Under the pieces are notes generated by a model. That model was not told the DNA's origin. It did not search any database and was given only the letters and a program-made list of their open reading frames with translations. DNA of 64,000 nucleotides from Liolophura sinensis (lineage: Eukaryota; Mollusca; Polyplacophora; Chitonida; Chitonidae), in NCBI RefSeq assembly GCF_032854445.1, contig NC_088303.1, forward strand, positions 28,869,265 to 28,933,264. The letters are read 5' to 3'. The translations under genes were made by a program, and so were the position numbers. Each line of letters begins with the position of its first letter. The stretch's first letter is position 1. Of this stretch, positions 2,170-63,989 are shown piece by piece.

Positions 2170-5100
2170 CTAACAGGGTGAAAAAACAAAACAAAAGGGA
2201 AAGTCAGCCAAAGGATACATCATAGGATAAAGTATCCACAGAACATACATATACATGTACACAAGCATGCATTCAGCTTCAGTCATTCAGTTATATTATA
2301 GTGACAATATATGTACTATGACTTCTAAACAGTATTACAGTGGTTGAAGTTGAACATCAATCAAAATTGGGGGCCCCTGGGGCCGAAAGGGTTAGCACGC
2401 CAGAGCAGCACAATGACCCAGGAGGCTCCCACCAATGCAGTCACTGTGAGTAAAAGTCCAGCTCATGCTGGCTTCCGTTTTGGCCCACCATGGGAAGGCC
2501 TGCCGGCAACATGTGGACAGTGGCTTTTTCCCCTGGCTCTGCCCGGTTTCCCCCCACCATCATGCAGGCAGTTGTCACATAAGTGAGTATGGCATAAAAC
2601 ACCAATGAAATAAATAAGTAAATAAATAAATAAATAAATAAATAAATCAAATTTCCTAGCACTAGCCAATTCTCTCAGGTTATGAAAGGTTACACCTGAC
2701 AGTAGACTTTTAACCCTATTATTTATTTATTTATTTGAATTATTTTTAGCCATACTCAAGAATACTTCACTTATATGACAGCAGCCAGCATTATGGTGGG
2801 AGGAAATAGGGCAGAGCCCAGGGAAAACCCACAACAATCCACACGTTGCTGGCAGACCTTCCCTCTTACAGCCGGAGAGGAAGCCAGCATGAACTGGACT
2901 TCAACGTACAGCCACTGCATTGGTTAGAGGCTCCTGGCTAGCATGCTAACCAACTGAGCCATGGAGGCCCCTCACCCTATTATGAGTCATAATTATTTAT
3001 GTAACAATTTTTCAGTCATATCACGACAAGAGGTACATGTACATATACTGTGTATTCTTGTGGCAGGGTGAGACCAAGCCACCACCAAAACCCATGACAC
3101 CGTCATGCCAAAAACACCAGACATAATACATAACAAGTCACCGGGCCAACCAGTCCTGTTTCCTTGCTCTAACCTCTCAGTGCCGAGCGCCAAGCAAGGC
3201 AGCAACAAGCATCATTTTATAGTCTTCTGTATGACCCTACCAGAGTTTGATCTCCTGACTTTGAATTGGCCACTCTAACCATTACAGCCTCACAGATTTG
3301 TAGAACAGGTACAATGTTATTCTGGATTGTATCTGAAGAGTGACTCTTTAGGCTATTATAATGATTACACAGCCACCTAAAAGCTACCTGTAACTCTTCT
3401 GGCTATACACCTGAGTATACCTACCGGTTTGTTCAGTAAAGCATTCAGCCCGTCAACCCACATATCATATTCATTCTGATTGGACGCCATAAAACACAGG
3501 GCTTCCTGGGAAACAGACGTGTCTGGTATGATAGCAAAGGCTAAAACTGGAGCTGTTTGCTGAAACAGAGCCCAAAGATTTCATCAAAGTCAGAGCTAAA
3601 TTAAAAGCTCAGTCCTAGAAAGGAAAGGATGGATAAACCAAGAGACGAATATACATGGCAACAACAATATGCTTTGCCCACAATGGTTGAGGGGCAGTCT
3701 CCCTTACGATAATGTGTTACAATACACCTTAGATAACTATATCAATATCTTGAGAAAGATCAACAGATCACAAAACATTAAACCCGTGAGATCAATAAAC
3801 CACATAACATAAATCCAACACTGATACATGTAGACACAATGCTAAAGAGAAAATCCCAAATGGGAAATAGAAAAATTTGATTCTTAAACTACAGAGTTGT
3901 CAATACTTGAAAGCAATCAGTGACAGAAAGTAACTATATACATGGTACATGGTAACTGTATTTTGCTCCAAAGTATTCTCGGTGTATTGTTGTGATCAGT
4001 CTAAACAATCAACCTGCTGTCAGCCCATGAGGGTGAATACATGATGATAAAACCCAGTCCAAAGGAATAATACATTACAATAAAACCCAGTCTATAAGGA
4101 TGAATACATGACGACAAAACCCAGTTTATAGGGATAAATATATGATGATAAAACGCAGTCTATAAGGATGAATGCATGATGACAAAACCCAGTTTATAGG
4201 GATAAATATATGATGATAAAACCCAGTCTATAAGGATGAATGCATGATGACAAAACCCAGTTTATAGGGATAAATATATGATGATAAAACCCAGTCTATA
4301 AGGGTGAATACATAATTATAAAATCCAGCCTATAAGGGTGAATATATGACGATAAAACCCTGTCTATACGGATGAATACATGAAATCTATAAAGATGAAT
4401 GCATAATGATAAAACCAAGTAAATGTATGAGTGCTTAGGGTTTAACAAACTCATAAAACCCAGTCTGTAAGGATTAATACATGATGATAAAACCCAGTCT
4501 AGAAGGACGAATACATGATGATAAAACCCAGTCTAGAAGGACGAATACACAATGATAAAACCCACTCCAAGTTGATGAATAGATGACAAACCCCACCCAA
4601 AGGGATGAATAGGTAATGACAAAATGAAGCCATTAAAGATGCTGAACTTGTCAATAACTGAAAACAATCTTGGAGAGAGGTAAACCGTACACATATGCAT
4701 TTAAAAATACAAGCTATTATTATATGTAAGAACGAATGTAACTATTTTAATAAACTCACCCGCCGTCTTTCCTTGATATGGGGACAATCCCTACCAATAA
4801 GTACATTCCTGATGTCAACAATGTTTACTGCAATGTAACAAACATATGGTTGTTCACGATACTGATGACATTTTCTGAATTCATTTTTGTTAATATCTCT
4901 GTGCTAAAACAATGCAAGAAAGTTATGAAATATTAGAGAAAAAAAGTAAAATGAAATCTTCTTCACGACAGAGGTTTGTTTACAGTTTCAGAAATTTTTC
5001 ATAGAAATGTGCACTACATTCAGTTTTAGGCCTAGACTGTTTTATATTAAAGCAAGTGTGCAAATGAATATTTTCTTTAATGTTTGTCCTTGTTAAACAA

Positions 5101-42556: not shown

Positions 42557-45500
42557 CTGGAAACACAGTGAGCACAATCACAATTATCAGGACAGCAGGT
42601 ACAGTTATCAGTAGTCACAATTATCAGCACAGCAGGCACAGTTATCAGTAGTCACAATTATCAGCACGACAGGCATAGTTATCAGTAGTCACAATTATCA
42701 GCTCATCAGGCACAACTACCATTGGTCACCAATACCAGAACAGCACACAGAATTATCAATAGTCACAATTATCAGCACTGTAGGCAGAGTTATACAGTAC
42801 TGATTGCCATGGCATGTTCATTAGGTGCAACCAGACTTACTCTCCAAAACTGACCCCTACTCCAAAGTTTTAATTGGGATTCTGGTTGATTTTTTTTTTC
42901 TGGCTCTCTCTAATTGCTCATTAAAATCCTTATTTCTTTTGTTTGCCTTACAGAATTCTAAAGCTCAGCACAGCAGACAGAGTTATCAGTCGCAGAGATC
43001 AGAACAGAAGGCACAGTTATCAATGGATTTTTATTTATTATTTGATTGGTGTTTTACACTGTGCTCAAGAATATTTCACTTATAAGACGACGACCAGCAT
43101 TATGGTGGGAGGAAGCTTGGCATAGCTCGGGGTAAACCCATGACCATCTGTAGATTGCTGGCAGACCTTCCCACGTAGAGTTATCAATGGAGTTATAGTG
43201 AGATACAGGTATCCACAAGTTGTCAAGAATAATATTTCTTTGGTAATCTCTGAATGACAATATCGAACATGTTTATGTTGACATAATATAATATAACAAT
43301 TGTATCAAACTGCAGAGATGGTACATTATCATTATACTTTGCTATTAAAAGAAAAGTATTTCACTGATTTTTTTTCCAATAGGTCTGCCAGTCCTAGAGC
43401 TAATTTGAACAACTGAAAACAACAACAAGAAGTTAACGTACCTTTGGATTGCGGATGTCAATATGAACTAGAAGGGAGGATAGTTCCAACGGCTCACTGT
43501 ATTCATTCAATAAAGGAACACTACGATATCCTGGGAGGAAAAAAAAAACAAAATACAAGCTGGTTTGTTCAGACAGGAATGATGAACTATGTTTTTTTAT
43601 CTGTTTGATTTATATATTTTATGTCCTACTTAAGAATGAATTCACTTATATCTGGCAACTGGTCAGGTTTAATGATAGAATTCAGAGGAAACCACTACAC
43701 CGCAGCAAGTAATTGACAAACCCCCAAATCCCAGAACCATATGTCAACAGGGCTTGAGTTACAACCCAAAACAGCATCATGAAGGTATGTGAGAAGTTAT
43801 CAAAACATATTATTATATAATAGAAAATAGAAAGGTGCCTCAATCTTGGATGTGAAGCAGAGCACCACACCGCAGGCTTACATGAACAGGAAAATAAAGA
43901 CTCAGTAGGGAAGGTGGCATACTTACCTTTGTAGAAACATCCAAGAGAAGTTTGCAAAGTTATTTGCACGCAGACATTTAATAGGGAAGGGTTGCATACT
44001 TACCTGTGCGTAAACATTCAATAGGGAAGGTGGCCTGGCCAAGGAAGTTAGGGTCGCCGAATATGTCCTCATCCTGGACGGTGAAGCGAATGAGAGCTAG
44101 CGGAGGGCAGAGGATATCAAAGACACACGGTTCATTCCATACCGGGTTCAGGCCATTATCAGCTGCAACAACGTAAGACACAGCATCCGACATCAAGAAG
44201 CAACAGATGCTGCATACAAATGTACCCTAAATGACCTCAAATTTCGCCCACAAAAGTGCATTTTTAAAGGCAAATAAATGTTACAAAATATTATTTTTGG
44301 GGCTGAAACTTACAATTTTCCAGCAGAACATCATCCCAAGCTTCAAGCAAACCTAGAAACACCTTTTCGAAAATCAACAGAACTCTCAGAATCAGGAAAT
44401 ATGGGCAAGTTAGTCATGGACGACATTTATGGTCATTCAGGGTATCCTGACACCAGACATATTTACATATTTAACCTAAAAATTTGACCATAAAAGCCTA
44501 AAAGTGTATTTCTAGAGGCAAGTAAACATTATAGAACATTATTTCTTAGTAGGACATCATCTCACCTTCCAAACAAAACTCTAGACACCTTTTAAAAATG
44601 AACAGAACTCTCAAAAAAAAAGGCAAAATGAGTAATTTAGTCCTGAATGAAATCTGAGGTCAAATACTGGAATTATGTCAAAGGCAAAGAACACACTAGC
44701 ATGAAGTACGTCAGATGAAATACCATTAAATATTGACTGGGAAAATAGTCTGATTTTTTTTTTAAAATATTTTTCAACCAAGTAAAATGCATTCCAAACT
44801 TTGGACTGTACTGTGGCCTTTTCTGACCATATTGAGACCAGCGATGTCCCTTCAGCTTTTTGCCACCTAACATACATAGATTGCTAAATTTCATCATTTA
44901 AAATGCATCTTCATTTAGAGCTACGAATGCATTCAACAAATGGACCTTGAAATGAACGATTTCAAGCCAAAAATATTGCTCTGACTTCATTTATACCCTC
45001 TGAGTCCCAACAGACCACCACAAAATCCTGTTTTAAATGTATTTTAGTTTAGTTAGCAAGAAAAATCAACCAAACTACTTTCTTAAACAGTGTTTAATGG
45101 TCTTCCATCTGATAAATACTTTATTTTAGAGTTTTCTTTGCCTTTAAGTATATAAATACAAGTATAACCCATGGATTCTGTACTCCTGTCTTCCATGGTT
45201 TGTCTTAAATCAAGTTTCCCCGCAGACAAGCAACCATTCCGCTTACAGAGAAGACAACTTACCTCTCGTAGAAGTCTTGAACTTGTTATTGTCGTACTCA
45301 GCACCTGCTATTTCTATTTCAACAAAGGGACTGGCAATTCCCCGTCCAGACTTCACCAAATGGCGTGCCCCAATCACCTGACAGACAAACCATATACATA
45401 CTTATTCTGCATCAGGCAAAATACTCCAGTTTTCACTGGACAGCATCAGTCATGTGGGAGACGTGACATTTCCCATATTGTGCGCCATATTTCTTCTGAC

Positions 45501-48500
45501 CAAGTTAGCTCCCGTTGCTAAGATGTTAAAACAATGATACCTTTGAAGCGATTCACTGATTCACCAGCCTTCTGCTACGAACTGATCATTTTTTTTTTTT
45601 TTTTTGATGGATAAATTCATTACACGGTTACTCAGTGACAGAATTCTGCAGAGATATTAAACTTTTGATTTCCTCCATAACAGTGAACTGCTTGCATAAA
45701 ATGGCAAGCAGGAGAATGGGAAAACTGCTCACAGGCCAGGCCTGATTCTTACTCTAAATTAAAAATGCAAATGTTATCTTGCCTCATGTTGACGGCTCCG
45801 TTATATACTGTTTATAAACATTGACAAGTACATGTACTCACAATGATGGAGGCTGTCAGGGGCTCAACACCCACCAATGTCCGTTTGTCAAAAGGATCGT
45901 AGTTTTCACTCCTCATACAGTCGGGCTGGAGAACATAACCACACCTACAAGTAAAAAATTACAATAAACTTCAGACCTTATAAATTAACAGGTAACACAA
46001 AACTTTAAATCACATGTAACTGTTAGCTTGGAGTCCCTCGGATTAGGCAACTGACCTTTAATGCTTTTATCTTTGTTGTTTTAATGCCAAACTGAAGAAC
46101 TTTTCATTTATATCATATGATGGTGGTCAGTTTTATGGGTGAAGAATAGCCATCAACCTCATGAGACAAACAGATGTGAACTCCATGGGTGGGTTGCATT
46201 CACTGATCTGACCGCTACTGGTGGTAGATTCAGTGGCCGCCAGAGGACACAGTGTGACGTCCCAATGTTCCAGATTTTCATGCACTTAGTGAGCCCAAGT
46301 TGAAGCACATATAAGTGAAAAGCAATTAGCTTTGAACAAGCTACCAATATAATGGCCTCACAACCATGATCATTTGTAGCTACTGTAAATGCCTTTTCAT
46401 TTGCGTGGTACTAACATTTGCAGATTTCGCGGCAAATACATTTCCGCGAAAAATAAGTGCCCTCGAATACAAAAGATGTAAGTAATTTATTAATGTCGCA
46501 TGCATTGGTTATAAATCCATTAACAGGCACTACAGTTCTTATACTTTTTCAAACACATTAATTAGAAAATAAGTGCCCTCGAATATAAAAGATGTAAGTA
46601 ATTTATTAATGTCGCATGCATTAGTTATAAATCCATTAACAGGCACTACAGTTCTTATACTTTTTCAAACACATTAATTAGAAAATAAGTGCCCTTGAAT
46701 ATAAAAGACGTAAGTAATTTATTAATGTCGCATGCATTAGCTATAAAGCCATTAACAGGCACTACAGTTCTCATACTTTTTCAAACACATTAATTAGAAA
46801 TACCTAATAAAAATGTATACCGGCTTTCACAAATCCAGCTTAATTCATCATCAGTTAATCTTGCTTTGTTTTAGCTCTGTCTAAGTTTCGCCACATTGCA
46901 ACGTTGTTGTTGTTGATTTATTGCCGCGGTTAGAGACATACAAATCCATTATTTGTACTGGGCGTGTGTACGTGATATGATATACATACGATGAGAGGCT
47001 GTTTTTTTTATCGACTGTACTTGCCTTCCAGTCAGATCACCTTTCCGACCCGCCTGATACATCGCTCAGGCGTTTCCGCACTTCAAACTTCCTTTTCATA
47101 CTGATGATTTCTGAGAAATTTACTCAAATCTGTCACAGTTTACTCAAAGTTTTACTCACACTGCTGATGCATGAGAATTAAACAGTGGGATTTATTTATA
47201 TTACATTTAATCCTACGGTGTCTCCTGGAGTGAGTGAGACAAATATTTGCTCACACAGCAGGTAAGGGCTTTGTCTTATAAAGATTAACAGTCTTCAAAA
47301 GATTAAAAGCTTAGGAAGATTAACTTCCTTTGTCTGATCAAGTTACTGTATTGTGTAGAATTTTTGTCACATCTTACAGGCACAAACAAGTTTAAATGAT
47401 TACAATGTTACTTGAATGCTTGAGTTGTTTTATTACTTGACATTTCTGTATTGAAGTTTGGTTTTCGTTTATCAGTTGTCCAACAATTCTGTTAAGATCC
47501 GCGAAAGTTGATTCCTGCAAATGTGGCTTCCTACCAAATCCGTGAAAGTTTATGCCCGCGAATAAAAAGACATTTTCAGTAATTTATTTAGTTTTTCAAG
47601 GCTATACTGAAGAATTTGTCAGTTATTATCGTTGAAGGAAATTGCACTGCCAAGAGACAAACCTCCTGACTTACTGCTGGAGCTGTATCAGCGACAGCTG
47701 GATTTGAACATGTGCTTTCACAACTTAATATCAGAGCCAAACCATTGACCAATCAAAGAATTAAGGAAATATTACATAACTATAACATAATATTACAAAA
47801 TATACAAAATTTATGTTTTTCAACTTGTATCTTTCAAACAGTTATTGCAAGGAAACATGAGACTTATAAAAATCACAGAATTGCTTTCAAACTTGGTCTG
47901 AGGTTCAACAAAGTAAACTTGACAGGCAGACAGACAGAGCAAACAGAAAACACAAAATCATGGGATAGTAATTAAAACACTGCGACTATACATGAAGATC
48001 TGTACGGGAAGCCCTCCATGATGAACACGCTGCATACACAATTACCTGCCATTACGCAGAAACCTTCCCATATTCATCTGCATAGGGCGATCCCCTGTCT
48101 GATAGTTGAGGGAGACCATCTGGGAACCGCAGTTCCAAATGTTCAAAGGATCATAATTGGACGAATCCACCCGCTGTCCTTTTGGGTAAACACGACTTAA
48201 CTGACTACGGTTATATCTGGACAGAGTTAAGAAGCATTGTGCATATTGTGAGCAAACTCTCAGTAACAGGTCAAACTCTGAACAGAACACTGCCTGTAGC
48301 TCAAGAAAACTTCATTAAATTCACAACTTGCACTCAAATAGTAGAATCAGCCGTAATTACCAAGTCAAGATGATGTTTCTCCCTTTACCAGTACCAGTAA
48401 GCGTATATTATTAACCAGTGCTCATGTACTGATCCCATACAATCACATCAAACAGCAAATGACATAAAATTTCGTCCATGACTGACTTGCTCGTTTACCC

Positions 48501-51500
48501 TGATTCTGAGAGCTATATATATATACTGTATATTAGAAAGGTGTTTAGTGGTTCATCTGGAGGGAAAGAGGATATTAAATGTAATGTGTTACCACCTTTC
48601 AGTATTTGCTGCTAAAAATGCATTATTTTTGTGGCGATCACAAACTTTTCTCACCTGAAATTTTACAAAAAAATAAAACAAGAAACTAACAACTACACAA
48701 AACTGAGGCACTGAGATATACATAGTAATTCACTTCTTACCTTAAATATTAACATATCCGAACTACTTCTATAGCCAAAGTACAGGAAACAACATCCAGG
48801 TTGAAAATAACACCATTAAAACAAAAGGATACTTTGCAAAGAACTTTCCCTTAGTCTTTGTGACATATTTTTCCACTTTGGTTTCCGGGAAGGATGACAT
48901 CTCGTAGTACTGTCCCGGCAAACCTGTTTACAGAAAAAAGAAACACATGAGTCGATGTAGAAGACATTTATTCATTTTTATAATTCATCAGTCTTTTTAT
49001 TCAGCACTCTACAATCTTTTGACTTTTTATGCAGACACAGCATGTAAGGTTCATGGCTGACAGAAACTGGCACACCTCCGAGAAAATTCTGGCACCTTGC
49101 CAAGCAAATGATACACCAATGCTGTCATAAATGTCCCTATCGCACTCTCTCACAGCACCAGAAAAATGTTGCTGAATGCATTAGAAATGCACTCCAGTAA
49201 GATTCTGTACAACATTCAGGCAACTCAGGTAGTTTCACTGATGCAGCATTTCACTTATGGTAGTGCGCAGGAACTCTATGCAGACTTTGGGCATGTTCAA
49301 AATTGACACAGCTCTCCTACGTTCTTATCTGAGGCATCTTGTTAACGACACATGCAAATACTTGTAGAAAGTAAATGTACATGGATTTCATCTAGTTGAT
49401 TTCAATACTTATTTTCAAATTATTCTACCTGAAATCTCAGATATGTTTACAAGACCTTTTGAGGTTGGATTAAATTTGTTTCTTTCAGCTCTGGCCATAT
49501 TTTCTCCATTCACAAACCTTTATATAGACATGATGTCAATGGCACATTCTAGACTGTCGCATAAAACACTAATCAATGAAAGCAATAACTGAGGAAAAAA
49601 ACGAGTGGTTATAGTAAGTTATGTTTAACTCACTGTCAGGGATGAACTGCACAGCTTGACAGTACACAATGAGATCAGAGAACTCGCGGGCAATGTTCCT
49701 AGACTTCTCTTTTGTCCGCAGCCTCTTGGCCTGTGGGGTTTAGAGTAGAATCAGTCATTAGATGTAGTAAACAGTTGATACACAGCACCAGCCAGAGTAA
49801 AAGGATAAGTTCTGGGTGAATCCCACTTGAGTGCCAGGCCTGTCTGTCAATGGTTGATATGACATTAACTTCGGTACACCATGGAATAATAAATCTTTCC
49901 GGAATGTCAATTAAAAACACCCCCAAAACAATTATTTCATCCATTATAATCAGTATGGATGCCAAACAGGGCAGCCAGATATACCCTAGATTGGTTAGCA
50001 TGTGCAAAAGGGTTTAGTTTGAGGTGCCCGCCCTGCGGTCTGTGTGTCCAAATGGCGGTTCACATAAATCTGTGATATTATATTATACTTCACAATACAT
50101 ATAATTCTATTTACTTATTTGATTGGTGTTTTACGCCGTACTCCAGAATATTTCACTTATACAACAACGGCCAGCAATTATGGCATGTTGAAACCGGGCA
50201 GAGCCCGGGGGAAACCCACAACCATCTACAGGTTGCTGGCAGACCTTCTCAAGAGTGTATTTTTACTTTCTCAGCATCAAGTCCATGGAAAATCAGCCCT
50301 TAATGGTCAACTGGACTAATGAGGTTAAAGATTATTATTATTGTTGTTGTCATGGTTGTTGTTGCTATATTTAAAATTTGTAATTATTAAGTATTAATGT
50401 ATTAAGAGTAGCTACTGACCACTTGTTCTGCCACTTCAGCACACTCTTGTATTTGGGCCATCCAGTCCTGTAACTTCTCCTCAGAGTCCGCCGCAATCTC
50501 CAGCGGCTGGGCCTGGGTCTGAGAGAAAATCTTAAACGCAAACCTCCTAAACCCAGGCCCTTGAGAGCGCTCTGAAATAAAACAACAAAGGCGGATGAAG
50601 ACATTGGTGTTAGTAACGAAACTGATTATGAAGTTCAACATAATGCAAAGAGTAGCATATACTACAAAAAAACACCACTCATTTTGACTCAAAATATTTC
50701 GGAATTTTATTATGCCATGAGCAATATGACTAAATTTCTGTTCTGTTTCCAAAATGAAATTTAAAATGCTCATAAATTGCCCTGAAAGTTGCTCTTTTAT
50801 ATGCAAAAAGGTTGACATCACAAAATGTAACCAAAATACTAAATCAACTTACAATTTAGATACAGGTGAATAGAACACAATTTTATGTTAGAAATCAAAA
50901 TAATGTCAAAATGGGAGCAATTGCATTATTCCAAAAAAAGAATAAAAGAGTACAGCCCTTGAGGTGAGCAATGTGCTTCATTACCCAGTACATACAAGTA
51001 CGTACTTACACCATAAAATTTCCATATTTAGACCATATTTCCTTGTTTGGCATTTTACAAACGATGATCTCACTTAAAAAAGAAAGCTATATGGCTACAA
51101 CATTAATTATGATGAAGATATGCATCTGTATGTAGATTTAGATGCACTTCACCTGTTACCTTTACTTGTGACCATCTTCCAACTACATCACTTGTCATCA
51201 CTGTTATTGTCTTTATTAAATATTCTTTATGCTGAAAGTCTATTTTATTGAAGTATATGAACATGTGATATAAAGTTAAGCGGATACCACAGAAGATAAA
51301 GGAAAAGGAAGAAGAAACTTATGAATCTTTCCTACCCAGGATGCACTTGCGGACATCAATGGATCCTTTCTGAAGTGAGCCGAGTGGGGCAGATTCGGAG
51401 GTGTCATCTTGGTTTTCTATCTCCTCTACGTAGTTTGATGGGAACCAGTTCTGCTTCTTGTCACTGTAATCTCCTCGCCACCTGCAGTCAGGACAAGGTA

Positions 51501-54500
51501 CAAATACATCTCGTGCCAATTATTTATTGATTTATTTGATTGGTGTTTTACACTGTACTCAAGAACATTTCACTTATACGACAGCAGCCACGATAACAGT
51601 AGGAGGAAACTGAGCACAGCCCGGGGGAACCTATGACCATCTGCAGGTGATTGCCAGACCTTTTCCCCCACTTTCTCACCAAGTTGTTTTTGCACACATC
51701 TGTGCATGCTTTCAAAAGTTTCAGTAAAGAGAACCTTCAGATTTTGTTTCTTTGCACCAGGAGGTTACCTGTAATTAAATAAAACAAAAACCAAGATAGT
51801 ATGTTGATTTGGTTTACAGTTAACTTCCATCAGCACTGTTCCTACAGGCTATCAGTAGCTAACAAACTGCATACAACACATTTCATCTTAACATAACACC
51901 AGAGGCAGATTTATCCCCCAACAAAAGCATTGCAATGACAGAAAGATGCACATGTGGTACCGATCATGAGTTATGTTGCTATGGAAACTCAAGAAAAACT
52001 TGACCCAAAAATGATTCTGGATGCACACACACACAAACAAGAAAACCATACCTATATGCCCTCTCTGACAAGAAGGGAGTGAGTGAGTGAGTGCTTGGGG
52101 TTTAATGTCGTACTCAACAATTTTTCAGTCATATGACGACGAAGGAATCCTTAGGGTACATGTACGTGTAATGTGCCTCCTTGTTGCAGGACAGATTTCC
52201 ACAGCTCTTTTATTTAGTGCTGCTTCACTGAGACGACTAACCAAAGGCAAGTAAGCTGCCCCGCCCGAGCCATTATACTGATACGGGTCAACCAGTCATT
52301 GCACTATCCCCTTCACGCTGAACGCCAAGCGAGGAAGTTACAACTTCTTCTTTTGAAGTCTTAGGTGTGACTTGTGTGGATCTACCGGTCCCGAACTGAC
52401 AAGAAGGGAGCCATTATAATGGCAAACTGAATAATTTACTGTATATCTTCAACATTTCCAACCACTACAGCCCTATTTGCAGTGGAACTGATGTTACATG
52501 TATAATTATTATGAAAATGATGCTAAAATGATTAACTTGTGTCATTAAAGATGCAAGTTTCAAACAACTGTGAAAATTATTTGCTTACACCCCATAGTTC
52601 TCTCGGAATGCTTATTAATATTAGTTGCAGAAAAGGTTGAAGAATTAGGGTATTCACGGCTGAACTTTTTGGTCAAACACAGGATTCAAGCTCACCATCC
52701 TCCATCTTGTTTGTGAACATTTGTAATCACAGCTCCCTTCCTGAATGACAGCTCATCCTCCCGGTTGGCATGGTAATCATGCAGGGCTTTCACACGGATC
52801 TGCTGGGGCAAAAAGTGACAGAAAAAAATTTAAAACCATACCAAGATTTTAACCACGTAACATGTAGTTCAAGTTTAATATAACCCAAACAGAAACTTTT
52901 GTTGTAGGTACAGGGAATTGACACAGTTATTTTACCTGAATTATTTTGTTAAGATGTTAGCTTAAATCTTATTAGAGCTTTCAACCACATTTAAGTGCTT
53001 CCTTTACACAAAGAAATGTGTTGAGAATATCCATATTGCCAGTACAAATTTTTGGGTGAGAAAACTGTTTTTGTGATACTCGTTTCCTACATCCATTATC
53101 AACAGTGACACAACCGAGTAAATGATAAATGACAAGGGAGTAAAATACCTTGGGCAAATGTAACCATTTCTAAAGATCTGTATATTAAAACACGACAAAG
53201 GTGGGCGAGTAGGGAGGAGGGGGTACAAAACAAAGACAGTTTAAAGATTGCTACAGTAAAATACTTAGATATAGCCAACAGTCGAATAAGAATCCTAAAT
53301 ATAAGTGATCAAAAAGTCTGATGCACTGAGCCTGCATTCACTTTCCTCAAAAACTACGCTGATTCATGGTGCCATAACCTGGATGTTACTTTCAAAAATA
53401 CACGTACATGTATCAGAAATTTGATTTGTGCTTCATATCCAAAAAATGTATTTCTTGTTAGCAGAAACATTCAGGAATATTTAGAAGCCTGCTTAATTCA
53501 CAAGGGCTGATCCATCACTATGCACAGGCGGTGTCAAACTCGCCTTACCTACTTCACCCATGCTGAGGTCTACCATGCTAAGATCATTCACCTTACTCCG
53601 AAAGTCTACCATGTGGAAGTGGTGTCAAATTCACCTTACTCCGAAAGTCTACCATGTGGAGGTGGTGTCAAATTCAGTTTACTCCGGAATTCTACCAAGT
53701 GGAGGTCTTGTCAAATTCACTCTACTCCACAAGTCTACCAGTCTACCATGCTGAGGTGGTGTCAAATGAATTCACCTTATTCTGGAAGTCTACCATGTGG
53801 AGGTGGGTTCAAATTCACCTTACTTGGGAAGTCTATCTTGCAGAGGCAGTTTCAAATTCACCTCACTCCACAGGTCTTATCATCAAATTCAAATTTTTAG
53901 TGGTCTATCACAGGAATTGACATCAAATTCACATTCTATCTAAAATGGCCTTTGACAAGAATTGGCATTCACATTCTAAAAGTCTATTACAGGAAATGGC
54001 ATCAGTTACACATTTTCAAAGTGGTCAAATTCACCTTCTTATATGAAGAACATCACAGGAGTTGGCATAAAATTCACATTCTTAAACAAATCTACTTATG
54101 CTGAACAAACAAGTCCATTACTAAATGGCCAAGAGATAGTTGTAAACTATAAAAGAACAGGAAAACATTGGACATAATACAATATACAGCACACAGACAT
54201 GACAGATTTACAGACTTACAGACAGACAGACTGGGTACAAATGACACACTGGGAAGCTTCATGGATAATCACAAACAAGATATTTTTATACACAAACTGA
54301 ATGAATTATCTCACATTTACACAATCCTCAAGAGATCTTGAATCAATAAAATTGCTAAAAGCGTACCAATATATTTACTGTTGCATAACCATAATTACAG
54401 GTATGGGTCTGTCTTTCAGCACAAAGATCATATGCATATATACAATTCAGTAAGATAACAAGCTTGTAACCTGGTTTGGAAAATAGGCACCTCATCATAA

Positions 54501-57500
54501 CAAGGCAATTTGTGGAAGAACCCCCATGCTTCCACATGCTAACACTGTGCAGGTGAACGATAACCACAAAAAACACTAGGCAAAGTTTGTGCCTGCTTGA
54601 CATTGGGGCAGAAGTTGGTGCCTACCTTTGAAGTAAAGTCATTAGGGTTATGGTAAATCCCTTCATGATAGATCTCCACATCTTGTGGTTCCTACAATAA
54701 GCAGTGGGGCATGCATTAAACAAACAGCAGCTACAGGTGGTTAGATCCTCTCAGAGGGTGGGTGGGTGGGGCCTTGTCCCTCGTGCAAATCATGACGACA
54801 TCTGTTTTACCGCAAAAGCCCCGGCCTAAGCAGGCCAGCCTCAGCATAAATAGGTGTGTGACATGTTGTGATGCTGAGAAGGATGAACAGTGTAGACACA
54901 CTGTGTAAACCATGCAGTATGTCAGCAGATTCATGATTCATGCCACGTGTCAGCAGATTCATGAATCGTGTCACGTGTCAGCAGATTCATGAATCGTGTC
55001 ACGTGTCAGCAGATTCATGAATTGTGCAGTGTGTGTCAGTAGATTCATGATTTGTCCCATCTGTCAGCCATTTCATGAACAACGCAGTGTCAGTAGATTC
55101 ATGAACAATGCAGTGTCAGTAGATTCATGAACAATGCAGTGTCTGTAGATTCATGAACAATGCAATGTCTGTAGATTCATGAACCATGCAGTGTCAGCAG
55201 ATTCATGAACCATGCAGTGTCAGCAGATTCATGAACCATGCAGTGTCTGTAGATTCATGAACCATGCAGTGTCAGTAGATTCATGAACCATGCAGTGTCT
55301 GTAGATTCATGAACCATGCAGTGTCAGTAGATTCATGAACCATGCAGTGTCTGTAGATTCATGAACCATGCAGTGTCAGCAGATTCATGAACCATGCAGT
55401 GTCTGTAGATTCATGAACCATGCAGTGTCAGTAGATTCATGAACCATGCAGTGTCTGTAGATTCATGAACCATGCAGTGTCAGTAGATTCATGAACCATG
55501 CAGTGTCAGTAGATTCATGAACCATGCAGTGTCAGTAGATTCATGAACCATGCAGTGTCAGTAGATTCATGAACCATGCAGTGTCTGTAGATTCATGAAC
55601 CATGCAGTGTCAGTAGATTCATGAACCACGCAGTGTCTGTAGATTCAAGCATGTTAGCATATCCATATTGTTGTACTATATGAATGAAAATGTATGCATG
55701 GCTAGACATCAGCACTATTGTCAGTTTTCCAAACCTTTACGCACATGTAGACGAATCTATACCAATGCATTATGTAAGCAACATCTTCTCATGTTTGACT
55801 TTAGAACTGTAAGCAAGGCCTAACTTACACTGCAGGCTTAAAAATATGAGGCATTCAGGCAAAGCATAGACATGTATTCATGGCTGTGTGGTGTAGGCTG
55901 AAAACCATCTCTTATAAGCTATTATTTAAATTATCAAAAATTTACTATATTCTCAGAACAGTGTTTTTTTTATTCCATATAGGTATCTAAAAGGGTGTAC
56001 ATGTGGATAAGTTAAGATGTGTAAAAGCACATAAATAGCAAGGACGTGTGGATGGATGATTTATACATGTATGCATACGGAATGGATTTACTCATTTGTT
56101 TAGTTGGCATGATGTGGGCATAAGAGTATATATGTACAATCTGGGCATAAGAGTGCAGGCATGTGATGTGGCCATCAGAGTGCAGATGTTTTGATGTGGC
56201 CATAAGAGTGCGGATGTGGCCATGAGAATGCAGATATGTGATGTGGCCATAAGAGCGCAGATGTTTTTATGTGGGTATAAGAGTACAGATGTGGGTATAA
56301 GAGTGCAGACATGTGATGTGGCCATAAGAGTGTAGATGTTTTTATGTGGGTATAAGAGTACAGATGTGGACATAAGAGTGCAGGTGTTTTCATGTAGGTA
56401 TAAGAGTGTAGATGTTTTAATGTGGGTATGAGAGTACAGATGGGGCCATAAGAGTGCAGATGTTTTGATGTGGGTATAAGAGTACAGATGTGGCCATGAG
56501 AATGTAGACATGTGAAGCGGCCATAAGAGTGCAGATGTTTTGATGTGGGTATAAGAGTACAGATGCATGATGGGAGTATAAAAATAGTGACATCTGTACG
56601 TCTCACATGGGTGTAACTGTAGATATATGGAGTAATGTAAGAGTACCATGTGCAGAATACATGTGTGCATGTGCTTGTGGTTGGATGGTGTGACGATGTA
56701 ATGAGAACATGCTGTTAGTGTGATGGGATGGCAAACATGATGCCCCATGCAGCTTTCCACGTTCCTCCTGACCACCCAAGGGCAGGTAACTGGCCCTGTT
56801 TTTACCTTGGACTGAAAGTCATTAGGGTTCATGTAGAGGTCAGGTGATCCATATATGGCACCCTTATCCGGGGGCTGAAAAAGCAGAAGACATCTATAAT
56901 GTCAGAGCAGATGATCCCTCTCTCAACATTACACACTGTTTTCCAGCCTGAAGCTTCACAGAAGCTTTATTATGAAATACTAACATCTGATGAGGGTTGC
57001 ACGGTCGTGATTTTCCCGTGGGTGTGGAATTTCATTATTATTCGCTTAGAAACATCTGATGTAAACAAGTTGAAAATAGTTTGCAAATAGTTGAAAGTTT
57101 GTTCGATATGTGGAAGAAATGCTGAGTTTAATACTCATTTACATATGCCAAGCAGGGGAAGCTGAAGCTGTGTTTTGTTGTGTGCATGTATTGCCAGTCT
57201 CAGACAGAGACTGTGCACAGTAGCCTGCTGTATTGAAATAAAAACAGATTTGGTAATTAAAATTTATATACAACAACAAAACATGAATACACTTGTGCAT
57301 GCACGTACGCTGATCAACAACAAAAAAAGCTCCAAAAAGTTTTCATTACCATGGAATAGCCTTTAGAGAAAGCTTGTATACATGGATTAAATGAATAAAG
57401 ATACTGAGAATTACATTAACTGACTCTTATTATGCTGCTATGACATGTATGAACTAGGTATGAATTACCTGAGTAACAGTTTTAAGAATTCGCCAGTGAA

Positions 57501-60500
57501 TATTTGACTGGTAGACAGATTTCATTCCTCCAACATAAATTTCAATACAATTTTCTCAATGTGAAAAAAATCCTAGTTTAGACATTCTGGCTTTTCTAGT
57601 ACCAAAAACTATTGAACACAAACATACATGTAGATGTTATGTTCATAGATGACAGGATAAGGATTTTGAAATACACAATAGCATCACAGTGCAAAAAAAA
57701 AAAAAAAAGAAGAGAACAGGGCACAGAGCCCCTTACAGGGGACTCACACAATACTCATCCTCCTGCTAGGCAGGTTAGGTGGACAAAACTCACACGCTGT
57801 TTCTTACCATGCCAACTCTCCTGACTAGGGCTTCATTTACCGGGTACTTCAGCTTCATCTTGTAATAGAGCGGGTGTCGCTCGTAGTACTGGACTAACTC
57901 CACCAGGCTCTCGAAGTGAGCGGTGCCGATCATGAATAGGCGGCCCTCCTGTTTGATACGGCAGTGCTTTATCTTTCCCTCAGCCCTGTCAAACCAGAAC
58001 AGATCAACAATGATGACAGGTTATGTATCATTGTTGCTAATACGCATGACATTAGAGTCAAACAAAACGACTAGTGGGTTTGGGTTAAAAATGACAAAGT
58101 GTGACACTGGTTGACGGAGATGACTGAAATAACCGAAAAATGAAATCAAAACAGCGCTGCAATTTTGATTTATTTATTTATTTATTTCTTTGATTGGTGT
58201 ACAAGAATATTTCACTTATATGATGGTGACCAGCATTATGGTGAGAGGAAACCGAGCAGAGCCCGGAGGAAACCCACAACTATCCGCAGGTTGTTGGAAG
58301 TACATCTGGAGCGGAAGCGTGCTAACCTCCTTGATCATGGAGCCGCCCCCTCCCCCCCTGGCATTTTTGACAGTACTATATGAAATGTTATTTTAAGCTG
58401 TAAAATAGTTGCTTAAAACTGCAATATTTTACTGCTAATATTCCAGTCATTATTCTTGATTACTTTCAAACCTTGATATGGGACATATATGAATATGCTT
58501 TTATAAGTAATATGTAGTATTTCGAACTGTAAATACACTTACTGCTGGATTACTTACAAGGGTCTGAATGAAAAAGAATCTGTCAAAAATTGTACAGATT
58601 TTTCTTTACTGGCTATACATATTTTGTCTGATAATTTAAACCTCTCAAGCAATTATAAGTTATAAAAGTATGTCCCAAAACCTATTACTGGTACAAACCA
58701 AGCAGTACAATCCAGAACAAAACATGATGTATACTATTTTGAACTCCTCACTTTTCTTCAGTACCTCATCATAAACAAAATACCGTATCACATTACGCTT
58801 TTCATACTTCAGGGAATGTCTTTCTGATTAAAACCTACAATCTGCAGTCTCATGCTATGATGTTCTATTTGCAATCTGCGGTTCCATGCTATAATGATCT
58901 ATTTGCAATTTGCAGTCTCATGCTATGATGTTATCTTTGCAATGTACATCCTCTTGCTATGACGTTCTCTTTGCAATCTGCAGTTTCATGCTATGATGCT
59001 ATCTTTGCCATGTACAGCCTCTTGCTATGATGTTCTTTTTGCAATCTGCAGTCTCTTGCTACGATGTTCTCTTTGCAATTTGCAGTTTCATGCTATGATG
59101 TTATCTTTGCCATGTACAGCCTCTTGCTATGATGTTCTATTTGCAATCTGCGGTCTCTTGCTATGATGTTATCTTTGCCATGTACAGCCTCTTGCTATGA
59201 TGTTCTTTTTACAATCTACGGTCTCTTGCTATGATGTTCTCTTTGCAATCTGTAGTCTCATGAATGCTGTCTCCTGCCACAATGTTCTTGAAATGCACAA
59301 ACATTCAATTTCATGCAACACACAAAAATTTTAACCCATAAAACCACCAAAAAAAAATACCAACAAACATAATAAAAACATGTACAAGATAAAACATGAA
59401 AAGAACATTCAATCCCGGAACTAGACAGGGAATTTGTAGACTCACCCTCTGTTTTTTTTCTTTTTTGTGGTACATTAATGACAATAAGTAGTGAACACCA
59501 TTTTATTACACACTTCACTTTTCTGTGTGTTCAGGCATTTCACATTTTAACATGTGTAGAGGTACTGTATGTAATATCTTCTGAAGTCTTGTATAAAACT
59601 TAATTATGTATGTTCAGGTACAACTCTGCAGCACTCTGTGATTATTAAGTAGAAGAAGATTACAAGTTTTATAAGTCAAAATGTTAACAAAGTTTCTACT
59701 GTTTTCTTTCAATTCACCATACCTCATGTTTTTTCCCTTTTATGTATCTGTACTTGCACGTTATATTCTTAACACCTGTTTGAACCTGTATACTGTACAC
59801 AATATGTACAGGTACAAGCTTCGTTGCCAAGACAGGCCTTACCTCATTGATATGGCAAACCTGCCAATGTCAGGGTCTGCTCGTGTGGAACTACGCCGGC
59901 TCTTACGCACCAGGAACGCTCCGTTGTGAGGAATTCGACTGAGCATGTCCTCTGCTTCTAATCGTGTCAAGCTCTCATGATACCACCTACACAAAGGCAG
60001 GTGTACAACAAACGATACAACAACATAAACCATGCCCCAACTACGTGACGACATTTCAGCACAAATACATGCATAAAAACAGCAAAAGACATCACAGGGT
60101 TCCATGTACAAACTTGTAGTAAGAGGCCATTTCAAATACTAACACCATATTCAGCTAAAATTTGTATTCATTGTTTCAAAAGTATTAGGTAACAGGTTTA
60201 ATATTTCACAAATTTTCCTCACATGAAAGATTAATGTGTACATTTGTCCTCTTCACAAGTTTGTAGACAAAACCCTGTGTTTGGGTAACATGCTATGGCC
60301 CTAGACTATGCAGCAAGCGGGCACACTCAACAGGGGAGGTCACCTGAAGGAAATGGCGAAGGAGTATTGGTCAGTCTCACTGCGGCGCACCAGGAAGGCA
60401 CCATCATAAGGCACTCGGATCAACATATCTTCTGCTGCTACACGGTCCATTCCTTCGTGGTACCATCTGATTAGGGAACAAGCCAATATCATTTACACAC

Positions 60501-63500
60501 ATCCCTCTGTGGTACCATCTGGTCAGGGAACAAGCCAATATCATTTACACACATCCCTCTGTGGTACCATCTGATTAGGGAACAAGCCAATATCGTTTAC
60601 ACACATCCCTCTGTGGTACCATCTGGTCAGGGAACAAGTCAATATCGTTTACACACATCCCTCTGTGGTACCATCTGGTCAGGGAACAAGCCAATATCAT
60701 TTACACACATCCCTCTGTGGTACCATCTGGTTAGGGAACAAGCCAATATCATTTACACACATCCCTCTGTGGTACCATCTGATTAGGGAACAAGCCAATA
60801 TCGTTTACACACATCCCTCTGTGGTACCATCTGGTCAGGGAACAAGCCAATATCATTTACACACATCCCTCTGTGGTACCATCTGATTAGGGAACAATCC
60901 AACGTCACTTACACACATCCCTCCGTGGTATCATCTGGTCAGGGAACAAGTCAATATCATTTACACACATCCCTCTGTGGTACCTACTGGTCAGGGAACA
61001 AGCCAATATCATTTACACACATCCCTCTGTGGTACCATCTGGTCAGGGATCAAGCCTACGTCATTTATACACATCCCTTTGTGGTACCATCTGGTTAGGG
61101 AACAAGCCATCACTCACACACACTCTCACATCCCTTCTTGGTACCATCTGGTCACTCAACAAGCCAACGTCACTTACACACAGCTCACATCCCTTCTTGG
61201 TACCATCTGGTCAGGGAACAAGCCAACATCACTTACACAGTCCACATCCCTTCTTGGTACCATCTGGTCAATCAACAAGCCAACATCACTTACACACAGT
61301 CCTCAACCCTTCTTGGTACCGTAACATCACCTTCACACATTCCCTTTTGGTACCATACAATCACCACTAGAAGGAATTTATCTTAATCTAGGGACAAGAC
61401 GGGAGAGTAACTATAATCAAGCTTAGTTCTATAGCTCTAGCAATTGGTTAAATATTCAATGTTGGCATCTAAAGAATCATTGTAAGGTCTTTGAAAGTAC
61501 ACTTTTAAAAGTGTTTTGAAAGTATACTTTTACCTGCCAAACTTAAGGTGAAATACAGTAAGTCAAGACTGTCTGTCGTCTCCACGTGATTCATATTTTG
61601 AATAATTATGAATCTGTGATAGGTAACCTTGACTTGTTCACCTGCACTGCTGGCCGATATAACACATTTATCACCATTATTGAGGCTTTCAACATATACT
61701 TTCACCCTTAAAAGAGATTCACAAGGTGTATTACTTCCCAAATTTACAAAGGTGTATTACTTCCCAACACTTCACATAACCAGACCTGAGGGACTATAAT
61801 ATGACTGCCCTCTGCACTTTCACACTGCTCACCCATACCCTTCTATCCCTCCCAATTTCTTAATGCCACAATCTCTTGCTGATCTTACAGACAATTACAG
61901 TTACATTTTTGGACTGTGTCTACTCACTCTTTGCCCTCGTGACTTTGGGGTTGGGGAACAGGTTCCTTGAGAGTCATGCTGAAGTCAGTCCCTCGCAGCG
62001 GTGTATTCCTGTAGTGCGTGATCAGGCTGTACAAGCTGTCGAAGGTCACCGGGTCGATGAGGAAATACTTGGTTTGGCCATGCTCCTGACGGGACTTTAT
62101 CCTGCAGTGGTTAGCCTTGTTTTGTCGCCTGGGAACAAAGAAAGTTTGGCTATATCTCCTACATGTAACTGTAGATCAACTGAAGTTCTTATTTACAAGT
62201 ACAGTGTAGCCTTGCTATAAGATGCCTCAATATAGCGCGCAATCACATATAACGCGGTCCAAATATATTGTCCCCCCAATGTCTGTGGTGTACTTTCACG
62301 TGAGAACAGCTAAAACTGCAAATGAATAAAGATGTTTCACCAAGAAATATACTTAAATAACGCAACATTATTTGCTTCATTTCCCACTGTAGGAGTGTGA
62401 CTCATGTGTTATTTGATAGGCTTAAGCTTTTTGAATATTAAGTGAGTATAAGCAAAAAGAAATGGATTTTTCTCTGAACAATGGAAGAGGTTGTACTGGT
62501 TACATTTTCTTTGCTGGCGAGTTTGATTCAAAACACACCTTGTTGCAGCATTACTTCCACATGTGTGGTTTCATCAACAATGCAGAACACATTTTGCTCA
62601 CTGTGACAGGCACACCTCATAAAGGGGTTAATATCTGTACACTTTCAGTAAATGCTGATAACTTTAATCAGATTATTGAATGGCTATAAAGCTAGGTGTG
62701 AAACTGCAGGAAGTGAGCTTTGGCTTACCGGCATACTGACATGTGAGTGAGTGAGTGAGTGCTTGGGGTTTAACGTCGTACTCAACAATTTTTCAGTCAT
62801 ATGACGACGAAGGAATCAGTAGGGTGCATGTACGTGTAATGTGCCTCCTTGTCGCAGGACGGATTTCCACCGCTCTTTTATTTAGTGCTGCTTCACTGAG
62901 ACGACTTACCGAAGGCGAGTAAACTGCCCCGCCCAAGCCATTATACTGATACGAGTCAACCAGTCATTGCACTATCCCCTTCATGCTGAACGCCAAGCCA
63001 GGAAGTTACAAAGTCTTAGGTGTGAGTCGATCAAGGATTGATCCTGGATCTACCGGTACCGAAGCGGACGTTCTACCAACTGTGCTATCCGGGCCGGTCT
63101 GACATGTGAGAGTTGAGATGAACTCGCTCAAACTTTTGAGAATGGCATCTTAATTTTTTTCTTCTTCATTTAATACATTGACTCAGCATGATATACATTA
63201 ATATGGTAACATTATTATTCTTTTTTTTTGGGTTCAGTAGCTGTAACACAGTCACATGATCAGGTTGACAGTCATCTGCAGTCTGCAATTTTGAATCTGA
63301 GGCATCTAAGTTCCAAAAGTTACTTCTGATACAAGCAGACATGCTTGATGAATGAATGGATGGATACCAGATGCGTTGTAGCTTTTTTCTTTCATTTAAA
63401 AATGAAGTGGATTTAAAAATAAATGTTTAACATGCACTGAATTCTGCAGATCAGCTTAGGCCTGTGATTATGTGATATGAGGCTAGCTTCACAGGACGGC

Positions 63501-63989
63501 AGCACGGTGCTGAAATGCTTGAATCCTTGGGTAATAAAAAATCCCAAAAAAAGCATTTGACAAAACACATTTTGCGTCGATGAAGCTTCGTTCAATGTCA
63601 AAATCATGACATGTAAGACAGACTGTAGCCCTATATACTGAAGCCCTATACACTGGATCTCAAGGTCATTTCATTATAGCACAAGGTAGCCTATAATGTG
63701 CTCAGGATCCTGTCCCCAAAGCAGCACGCTATAGCGAGGCTACACAGTACATAAGAAACAACCAAACAAGTCCCAATGGGATGATAGGAGACTACCAACT
63801 TCCCAACACACCTACTCACCAGAAGGACAGGGAGAAATCCCCGACAAACGTCTCACTCTCTCGCACTAGGAATGTCCCGTCTCCCAGATGACTGTACTGT
63901 TGTAGTAGTTCCTCCGCTCGTCTTCTACCCCCTTCTAAGCGACCATGAAACCACTGTTCACTGAAGTGGAGCTCATCATTTGGTTGACC
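42368..63989 (-). CDS. plcg: Phospholipase C gamma, partial (5' end outside window), 16 exon positions
   Basis: PLC-gamma cleaves PIP2 to IP3 and diacylglycerol at the plasma membrane after recruitment by tyrosine kinases. Exons in order: 63820-63989, 61928-62128, 60344-60466 or 59843-59986, 57808-57985, 56806-56874 and/or 54626-54691, 52696-52802, 51336-51481, 50420-50571, 49634-49730, 48833-48923, 48046-48216, 45842-45944, 45263-45377, 44004-44162, 43442-43530, 42368-42556. All borders are AG/GT and all phases join; one choice at each double position gives about 719 residues, like vertebrate PLCG1 from nSH2 to the end. Domains: nSH2, cSH2, tyrosine linker, SH3, second half of split PH, catalytic Y box, C2, helical tail. 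X box, EF hands and first PH lie past the right edge. Confidence 0.97.
42570..43030. repeat. Minisatellite, about 37-bp unit, interrupted
   Basis: Units of CAGCACAGCAGGCACAGTTA followed by TCAGTAGTCACAATTAT at 42570-42790, and again at 42955-43030 beyond 160 bp of foreign DNA. It abuts the acceptor of the last PLCG exon. A last piece (AGTTATCAATGGA) follows the SINE at 43180. Confidence 0.85.
43026..43178 (-). repeat. SINE-A copy in the 37-bp array
   Basis: TTTATTATTTGATTGGTGTTTT to GGCAGACCTTCCCACGTAG. ATCAATGGA-like array sequence is on both sides (TTATCAATGG before and after), a probable target duplication. Confidence 0.83.
43442..45377 (-). CDS. plcg: PLCG C2 domain exons
   Basis: Exons 45263-45377 ([20 protein letters not shown]), 44004-44162 ([37 protein letters not shown]) and 43442-43530 ([20 protein letters not shown]). 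NGLNPVW and DEDIFGD carry acidic Ca2+-loop positions as in PLCG1. The donor end of the middle exon is repeated in the next intron. Confidence 0.96.
43600..43695 (-). repeat. SINE-A fragment, diverged
   Basis: TGTTTGATTTATATATTTTATG, then CCTACTTAAGAATGAATTCAC. Confidence 0.65.
43915..44003 (-). repeat. Duplicated donor end of the PLCG C2 exon
   Basis: On the minus strand the exon end and donor (CCCTATTGAATGTTTACGCA then CAG|GTAAGTATGC) recur about 75 bp on as CCCTATTAAATGTCTGCGTG and, with further drift, CTACAAAG|GTAAGTATGCC followed by CACCTTCCCTA. One full and one partial extra copy. Confidence 0.65.
44218..44660 (-). repeat. Dispersed repeat C, two copies in tandem
   Basis: 44218-44450 and 44455-44660 both read GACCTCAAATTTCGCCCACA-like, ACACCTTTTCGAAAATCAAC-like and CAGAACTCTCAGAATCAGG-like sequence, the reverse of the 17.6-kb copy. 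Confidence 0.65.
45842..49730 (-). CDS. plcg: PLCG catalytic Y-box exons
   Basis: Exons 49634-49730 ([14 protein letters not shown]), 48833-48923 ([14 protein letters not shown]), 48046-48216 ([40 protein letters not shown]) and 45842-45944 ([19 protein letters not shown]). [15 protein letters not shown] is the substrate-binding core of the TIM barrel second half. The X box is outside the window. Confidence 0.97.
46080..46190 (-). repeat. Very diverged SINE-A-like fragment
   Basis: GTTTTAATGCCAAACTGAAG, then TTTCATTTATATCATATGATG and GGTCAGTTTTATGGGTGAAG. Confidence 0.45.
46383..47579. mobile_element. TA-flanked non-autonomous DNA transposon, 1197 bp
   Basis: The left end CTGTAAATGCCTTTTCATTT then GCG pairs with the reverse complement of the right end, CTGAAAATGTCTTTTTATTC then GCG, and similarity goes on (ATTTCGCGG / ATTTGG) for about 45 bp. 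TA is at 46381-46382 and 47580-47581, as in Tc1/mariner-type insertion. No transposase ORF. It holds a triple 117-bp repeat. Confidence 0.8.
46449..46800. repeat. Three tandem 117-bp units inside the transposon
   Basis: Each unit runs from AATAAGTGCCCTCGAATA through TTAATGTCGCATGCATTAG to TTTTTCAAACACATTAATTA. The three differ at only a few sites. Confidence 0.95.
48462..48635 (+). repeat. Dispersed repeat C, copy
   Basis: AAATTTCGTCCATGACTGAC, CCTGATTCTGAGAGC, AGAAAGGTGTTTAGTGG. An (AT)n insert replaces the middle. Confidence 0.65.
50106..50250 (-). repeat. SINE-A fragment
   Basis: TTTACTTATTTGATTGGTGT to GGTTGCTGGCAGACCTTCTC. Confidence 0.85.
50420..50571 (-). CDS. plcg: PLCG C-terminal half of split PH domain
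   Basis: Gives [19 protein letters not shown] and [19 protein letters not shown]. It matches vertebrate FVFSISM...AADSQEELQDWVKKIREVA. Confidence 0.95.
51336..52802 (-). CDS. plcg: PLCG SH3 domain exons
   Basis: Exon 52696-52802 gives [19 protein letters not shown] and NVHKQDGGW. Exon 51336-51481 gives [20 protein letters not shown] and [19 protein letters not shown], the WW pair split by the intron, and FPSNYVEE are the SH3 ligand-binding signature. It matches vertebrate ALFDYKAQREDELTF and [10 protein letters not shown]. Confidence 0.97.
51522..51665 (-). repeat. SINE-A fragment
   Basis: TTGATTTATTTGATTGGTGT to GATTGCCAGACCTTTTCCCC. It sits 40 bp upstream of the SH3 exon at 51336-51481. 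Confidence 0.85.
52080..52395 (-). repeat. SINE-B with perfect 15-bp target duplication
   Basis: GAGTGAGTGCTTGGGGTTTAA, TTTTTCAGTCATATGACGAC, GGATTTCCAC...tRNA-like head in reverse ending GGATCTACCGGTCCCGAA. CTGACAAGAAGGGAG occurs at 52065-52079 and 52396-52410. Confidence 0.92.
53530..53930. repeat. Minisatellite, about 43-bp unit
   Basis: Units of TCTACCATGTGGAGGTGGTG, TCAAATTCACC and TTACTCCGAAAG. ORFs of 64-126 codons here are repeat translations. Weaker TCAAATTCACATTC units run on to about 54090. Confidence 0.88.
54626..54691 (-). CDS. plcg: PLCG tyrosine-linker exon, version b
   Basis: 66 nt, phase 0-0. Gives [19 protein letters not shown] and TSK. It shares NPNDF-SK and both tyrosines with version a, so it is a duplicate. 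Acceptor TTATTGTAG, donor TCAAAG|GTAGGC. Skipping or including either or both keeps the frame. Confidence 0.9.
54905..55648. repeat. Minisatellite, 26-bp unit, about 28 copies
   Basis: CAGTGTCAGTAGATTCATGA followed by ACCATG, alternating TCAG and TCTG forms. Units after 55180 are nearly identical, while those at 54905-55080 are diverged. It lies between the two tyrosine-linker exons. Confidence 0.95.
56100..56580. repeat. Minisatellite, about 27-bp unit
   Basis: Units of GTGGCCATAAGAGTGCAGAT or GTGGGTATAAGAGTACAGAT plus GTTTTGAT. The long minus-strand ORF (246 codons) is this repeat translated behind the end of the linker exon. Confidence 0.9.
56806..56874 (-). CDS. plcg: PLCG tyrosine-linker exon, version a
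   Basis: 69 nt, phase 0-0. Gives [19 protein letters not shown] and QSK. It sits where vertebrate PLCG1 has EPDYGALYEGRNPGFYVEAN, which carries Tyr775 and the activating Tyr783. Here IY and LYMNPN stand at those places. Acceptor TTTTTCAG, donor CCAAG|GTAAAA. Confidence 0.9.
57808..57985 (-). CDS. plcg: PLCG cSH2 second-half exon
   Basis: Gives [36 protein letters not shown] and [15 protein letters not shown], matching vertebrate [15 protein letters not shown] and YYEKHPLYRKMKLRYPINEE. It can follow either version of the first half. Confidence 0.96.
58166..58300 (-). repeat. SINE-A fragment
   Basis: TTGATTTATTTATTTATTTC tail to CGCAGGTTGTTGGAAG. Confidence 0.84.
58300..58825. other. PLCG intron, nothing seen
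   Basis: AT-rich unique sequence between the cSH2 second-half exon and version B. Confidence 0.5.
58830..59270. repeat. Minisatellite, about 30-bp unit
   Basis: About 14 units of TTTGCAATCTGCAGTCTCAT followed by GCTATGATGT. Confidence 0.9.
59843..59986 (-). CDS. plcg: PLCG cSH2 first-half exon, version B
   Basis: 144 nt, same phase at both ends as version A. Gives [38 protein letters not shown] and GRFAISM. It is seven residues longer than A through a basic loop (RRSSTRADP) after FLVRKS. It is closer than A to vertebrate WYHASLTRAQAEHMLMR. Donor ATGAG|GTAAGG. Both versions in one transcript would stay in frame but give one and a half SH2 cores. Confidence 0.94.
60344..60466 (-). CDS. plcg: PLCG cSH2 first-half exon, version A
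   Basis: 123 nt. Gives [37 protein letters not shown] and ends AG|GTGACC. It enters after GA and leaves after AG, exactly as version B. The FLVR arginine is kept. Acceptor TTCCCTAATCAG|ATGGTACCAC; the whole acceptor plus the first codons are the unit of the array just upstream. Confidence 0.94.
60467..61345 (-). repeat. 52-bp tandem array made of the cSH2 version-A acceptor
   Basis: About 17 units. On the minus strand each reads ATATTGGCTTGTTCCCTGAC, CAG|ATGGTACCAC and AGAGGGATGTGTGT. The real exon start reads TTGGCTTGTTCCCTAATCAG then ATGGTACCACGAAGGAATGG. So polypyrimidine stretch, AG and first codons are all in the unit. Units near the exon are nearly uniform; those past 61080 diverge. 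ORFs here are repeat translations. Confidence 0.93.
61928..63989 (-). CDS. plcg: PLCG nSH2 domain exons
   Basis: Exon 63820-63989 gives [11 protein letters not shown] and [19 protein letters not shown]. Exon 61928-62128 gives [38 protein letters not shown] and [13 protein letters not shown]. The phosphotyrosine-binding arginine of FLVRES is present. It is nearly the vertebrate [18 protein letters not shown] block. Confidence 0.96.
62748..63098 (-). repeat. SINE-B with 12-bp target duplication
   Basis: Same family as 52080-52395, with the full tRNA-like head in reverse (TTCTACCAACTGTGCTATCC, GGGCC). CTGACATGTGAG stands at 62736-62747 and 63099-63110. Confidence 0.92.
63115..63815. other. PLCG intron, nothing seen
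   Basis: AT-rich sequence between the two nSH2 exons. CTATATACTGAAGCC and AAGGTAGCCTATAATGTGC may belong to an old repeat. Confidence 0.5.

Follow-up and report, generated by a model that had tools for sequence, protein, structure and literature searches.

The substitution of tandem duplicated exons is established as a class, and its member FYN is the nearest in kind to the gene described here. The tandem duplicated exons of FYN (FynT/FynB) are homologous neighbours that are spliced in a mutually exclusive fashion (PMC9741552). The same source gives 236 tandem duplicated exon substitution events in human, and suggests concerted action for three of them in voltage-gated calcium channel genes. 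Its main text does not mention PLCG, and our literature search, over open-licence PMC papers, returned no report of duplicated or mutually exclusive exons in PLC-gamma. For the mammalian enzymes, with linker tyrosines numbered 775/783 and 753/759, PMC7004563 describes the binding of pTyr783 to cSH2, has the EF and BG loops of cSH2 clamp C2 and also engage pTyr783, and states that soluble kinases require both Tyr775 and Tyr783; in that account the cooperation of the two linker tyrosines in PLC-gamma activation is an open question. Set beside these systems, the PLC-gamma gene of the chiton Liolophura sinensis looks, from the arrangement of its exons, to be built for PLC-gamma enzymes with interchangeable on-switches.

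The gene occupies the minus strand of the window, by which we mean the whole 64-kb stretch of DNA that was analysed (NC_088303.1:28,869,265-28,933,264, in a genome of 609 Mb), and it extends upstream beyond the window into flanking sequence. Three exon sets, representing its N-terminal, SH2-SH3 and C-terminal parts, all have mammalian PLCG1 and PLCG2 as their top PDB matches, and a PI-PLC-Y domain is matched at 48045-48224 on the minus strand, so the identification of the gene as PLC-gamma in the first-pass annotation holds. The architecture is likewise that of PLC-gamma, with catalytic halves around a split PH domain, an array of two SH2 domains and an SH3 domain, and then C2. We read the locus as the PLC-gamma gene of a mollusc. 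Within the array, all on the minus strand, the exon map places the two nSH2 exons at 63820-63989 and 61928-62128, the second of them joining in frame to either of two cSH2 copies, and the SH3 exons at 52696-52799 (phase 0 start) and 51336-51481 (SH3 second exon and the stretch after it). A genome search for a second or processed PLC-gamma copy found none among the matches listed, of which only the best candidates were scored: 7 of the 30 listed are the gene's own exons, and the remaining 23, at 50% identity or less, fall in the SH3 part (20) or the SH2 part (3).

Several other features were seen along the way. Two copies of a dispersed repeat, presumably SINE-like, lie in PLC-gamma introns (62687-63127 and 52055-52413), and the upstream flank contains a related copy. 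The acceptor of the SH3 first exon (52799-52806) is of the NAGNAG type, ccccagcag, by which one extra Gln is possible directly after the linker. The donor region of the C2 exon (43926-44004) is locally duplicated, with a second gtaagt 77 nt downstream of the first that would, if used, lead to an in-frame stop. A neighbouring ELMO/CED-12-like gene lies at 3380-17425 on the minus strand; of six pieces of it that were tested, four match ELMO_ARM (twice, once short of the family cut-off), PH_12 and ELMO_CED12. At 10853-11701 a 75-bp unit is repeated in tandem about 11 times and leaves a long reading frame open on the minus strand. Elsewhere in the genome, eight matches to the haemocyanin beta-sandwich family, a molluscan family, stand in a row at C8:37880506-37891931; they are likely to represent one eight-unit haemocyanin gene, and the genome looks molluscan.

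The feature at the centre of this report is a pair of short exons between the cSH2 and SH3 exons of PLC-gamma. Linker exon A (56806-56874, minus strand) is 69 nt long, with acceptor ttttcag and donor gtaaaa, and linker exon B (54626-54691, minus strand) is 66 nt long, with acceptor attgtag and donor gtaggc; the intron between them (54692-56805, minus strand) measures 2114 nt and contains two minisatellite arrays. Both exons are phase 0-0, and they sit between a cSH2 exon that ends in phase 0 and an SH3 exon that begins in phase 0. Each encodes two tyrosines, in GAIY/LYMNP for A and in VEIY/IYHNP for B. Coordinates, phases and splice sites thus bear out what had first been read here, namely two phase 0-0 exons of 69 and 66 nt with two tyrosines each. 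The splice sites themselves are unremarkable: the acceptor tracts of both linker exons have 12 pyrimidines in 16 positions, and both donors match the 9-base consensus at 7 of 9 bases, as is the case for seven of the nine exons checked, the outliers being the first nSH2 exon (8/9) and the second SH3 exon (5/9).

The two linker peptides are identical at 11 of 22 aligned residues, both tyrosines and NPNDF.SK included. When 4272 overlapping segments were scored across the six frames of the window, B was the best non-self place for A (48, against 33 for the next) and A was the best non-self place for B (49, against 39), and none of 20,000 shuffles of B reached the A/B score. In the genome, the linker regions A and B each returned one match. 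From these comparisons, A and B are diverged tandem duplicates.

How closely each copy corresponds to the mammalian switch is a separate matter. In phmmer alignments with PLCG1 and PLCG2, the two tyrosines of A, and likewise those of B, pair with the two tyrosines of the mammalian linker, which we take to be those numbered 775/783 and 753/759. For the linker of exon A alone, only 4 of 5000 shuffles reach the score against PLCG1 and 34 of 5000 that against PLCG2, and a tyrosine-for-tyrosine correspondence between A and the mammalian switch pair is supported by this result. The linker of exon B is a weak match on its own, its score being reached by 250 of 5000 shuffles for PLCG1 and by 744 of 5000 for PLCG2; its identity comes mainly from its likeness to A and its position. 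The proposal that both exons stand at the place of PLCG1 Tyr775/Tyr783 is therefore sustained for both by alignment and position; in the shuffles it is clear for A and, taken alone, weak for B.

A second duplication lies immediately upstream, as the first-pass annotation had also indicated. The first half of cSH2 is encoded twice on the minus strand, by exon 1a (60344-60466, 123 nt) and exon 1b (59843-59986, 144 nt), both phase 2-2, and the second half once, by an exon (57808-57985, minus strand) that ends in phase 0 and for which no duplicate was found. The two copies agree at 24 of 40 aligned residues, and both keep the FLVR arginine and the arginine three residues after WYHE plus one. Between FLVR and FAIS, a stretch that we take to be the BC loop, exon 1b has seven residues more than 1a; the loop is accordingly short in 1a and longer in 1b. 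Against PLCG1 the two cSH2 copies alone perform alike (score 112.5 with 23 identities for 1a, 110.5 with 25 identities for 1b), and in a longer construct with linker B, 1b scores below 1a (253.6 versus 274.4 bits). When 26 exon pieces, a partial coverage of the gene, were compared by tblastn at E 0.01, no duplicate pair other than cSH2 appeared, in a search that could miss short ones; its matches were the cSH2 pair, nSH2 with cSH2, and one weak match on the opposite strand (E 0.007). At this threshold tblastn is too weak for a pair of 22-23 residues, and the linker duplication rests on the six-frame comparison of the window. Both the linker pair and the cSH2 pair are thus adjacent, homologous and of equal phase, as tandem duplicated exons are.

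Directly upstream of exon 1a stands a 52-bp minisatellite of about 16 copies (60457-61298, minus strand), whose unit copies the 3' splice site of cSH2-1a and the first bases of the exon. Apart from the true cSH2-1a acceptor, CAG+ATGGTACCA occurs there in exact form 13 more times, and these copies are possible decoy acceptors.

Taken together, the two duplications show signs of coding constraint. Over both pairs, the copies are alike at 87 of 124 sites in codon positions 1 and 2, compared with 23 of 62 in position 3 (Fisher p = 3e-5), a bias that a single constrained copy per pair could drive, at least in part. This bears on whether B might be a decaying or unused duplicate, with A alone as the working linker. 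That B is further than A from the mammalian linkers would fit such decay, but B has kept its frame, its splice sites, 11 of 22 residues and both tyrosines in spite of high third-position divergence. In 20,000 runs of a neutral simulation, exon B seldom kept its frame and splice sites along with 11 or more of its 22 residues, except at low divergence: in 10.7% of runs at d=0.3, in 0.19% at d=0.6 and in 0 of 20,000 at d=1.16. The observed third-position identity between A and B, 8-9 of 22 depending on the alignment, corresponds by Jukes-Cantor to the high end of the simulated d. We consider decay of B very improbable, and infer that both copies of each pair have been retained by selection.

Granted two working copies, the question is how they are combined. 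Every one of the 16 exon combinations tested across the two pairs keeps an open frame, and for that reason frame alone decides nothing. With cSH2-1a held fixed, the best fit to linker-bearing mammalian chains is obtained with a single linker: against PLCG1 (7t8t), A gives 282.0 bits, B 274.4, A+B 268.2 and no linker 258.5, and against PLCG2 (8t7c) the corresponding values are 244.9, 238.3, 232.4 and 224.1. With PLCG1 chains that lack the linker (6pbc, 7z3j, 9qb7) the order is reversed, no linker giving about 267 bits and the rest 257-258.5, as expected since the linker is missing in these chains. The lengths of the linkers are 23 residues for A, 22 for B and 45 for A+B, beside 27 for PLCG1 as cut here.

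These values weigh on two further explanations. One is that both linker exons are always included, which would make a single long linker with four tyrosines and a duplicated rather than an alternative switch. Two exons that are both phase 0-0, multiples of three in length, open in frame when joined and furnished with ordinary splice sites could well be spliced in this way; A+B, however, fits mammalian PLC-gamma worse than either exon alone and stretches the linker to 45 residues, and were the adjoining cSH2 pair to behave likewise, the protein would have one and a half SH2 domains. We regard constant inclusion of both as unlikely. The other explanation treats the exons as free cassettes, with none, A, B or A+B in the transcript and so zero, two or four tyrosines, the linkerless forms being autoinhibited and deaf to phosphorylation. 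Here the open frame of every combination and the absence of the linker from the aligned PLCG1 entry 6pbc are on its side, yet frame is its entire basis, and the form without a linker is the one that fits the linker-bearing mammalian chains worst. Free combination seems to us a shade less likely still than constant inclusion. The first-pass annotation had suggested that each exon could be used, skipped or combined; its arithmetic of zero, two or four tyrosines stands, all combinations being open, and the data favour one exon at a time. Use of one copy at a time is favoured over free combination because a single linker fits mammalian PLC-gamma best and because the cSH2 pair yields an ordinary single SH2 domain only when exactly one copy is used.

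What would enforce such a choice is less apparent. A visible exclusion device, which mutually exclusive exons do not always need, might be a frame break, a very short intron or competing RNA pairing, and none of the three was found. Steric exclusion was rejected, the introns between copies being too long at 2114 nt (linker) and 357 nt (cSH2), and so was exclusion by a frame break, double inclusion staying in frame. In six comparisons among the flanking introns of both pairs, perfect complementary pairing never rose above that of shuffled controls; 42 to 100 of 100 block-dinucleotide shuffles did equally well or better. Given these introns and the lack of perfect pairing beyond the shuffled level, we see no mechanism of exclusion. 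Pattern scans of viral contigs (1 match) and of genome contigs (12 matches) turned up no relative.

Regardless of how the choice is enforced, we think it probable, on the strength of the genomic exons, that a single copy from each pair enters any given mRNA, so that a constant, C2-clamping half of cSH2 is combined with a variable switch peptide and a variable phosphate pocket. Two further observations count against this reading, the weak match of linker B by itself to the mammalian linkers and the poorer fit to PLCG1 of 1b than of 1a when combined with linker B. In this gene, two exon positions of the regulatory array have been duplicated in tandem, the linker exon and the one that encodes the initial half of cSH2. 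The exchanged half of cSH2 would comprise the alpha-A helix, the FLVR strand and the BC loop, which form the phosphate-holding side. By general SH2 topology, we take the constant cSH2 exon to encode the EF and BG loops and the exchanged exon to encode the BC loop, from which it would follow that the lock is constant and that the key and the phosphate pocket are exchangeable. The constant half, with its EF and BG loops, would clamp C2 and impose autoinhibition alike in all forms. Activation would then run through either A, near the mammalian switch, or B, read by one of two phosphate pockets that would differ in having a short BC loop or one longer by seven residues. The choice of linker may decide which kinases can activate the enzyme, and the tightness of binding between the phosphorylated linker and cSH2. 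Three pieces of general background, that the cSH2 of PLC-gamma prefers a proline three residues after the phosphotyrosine, that pYxN is a Grb2 motif and that acidic residues precede the target tyrosines of kinases, carry no weight here.

A more elaborate possibility is that the two choices are linked, each linker being spliced together with its matching cSH2 pocket. The gene might then yield at least two enzymes with the same autoinhibition and different kinase inputs and thresholds, the choice of cSH2 perhaps being tuned by the minisatellite with its 13 extra copies of the cSH2-1a acceptor. We offer this linkage tentatively, as a rather unlikely elaboration of the preferred one-copy-of-each arrangement.

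If both linkers are used, the chiton gene would provide natural variants of the switch on an otherwise constant enzyme, and splicing would exchange a phospho-switch and its reader within one gene. FYN, too, has homologous adjacent exons that swap, within a signalling protein, a stretch bordering an SH2 domain (PMC9741552), but FYN swaps the linker between SH2 and kinase together with the first part of the kinase domain, whereas PLC-gamma would swap its tyrosine linker and, separately, half of the SH2 domain that would bind it; the splicing of FYN has been demonstrated, whereas that of PLC-gamma is predicted from genomic exons. The human tandem duplicated exon events share with chiton PLC-gamma the adjacency and homology of their exons. 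Mammalian PLCG1 and PLCG2 have the same domains and the same two linker tyrosines, but the mammalian chains compared here have a single cSH2 and a single linker, deleted in some of them, whereas the chiton gene holds a duplicated exon for each.
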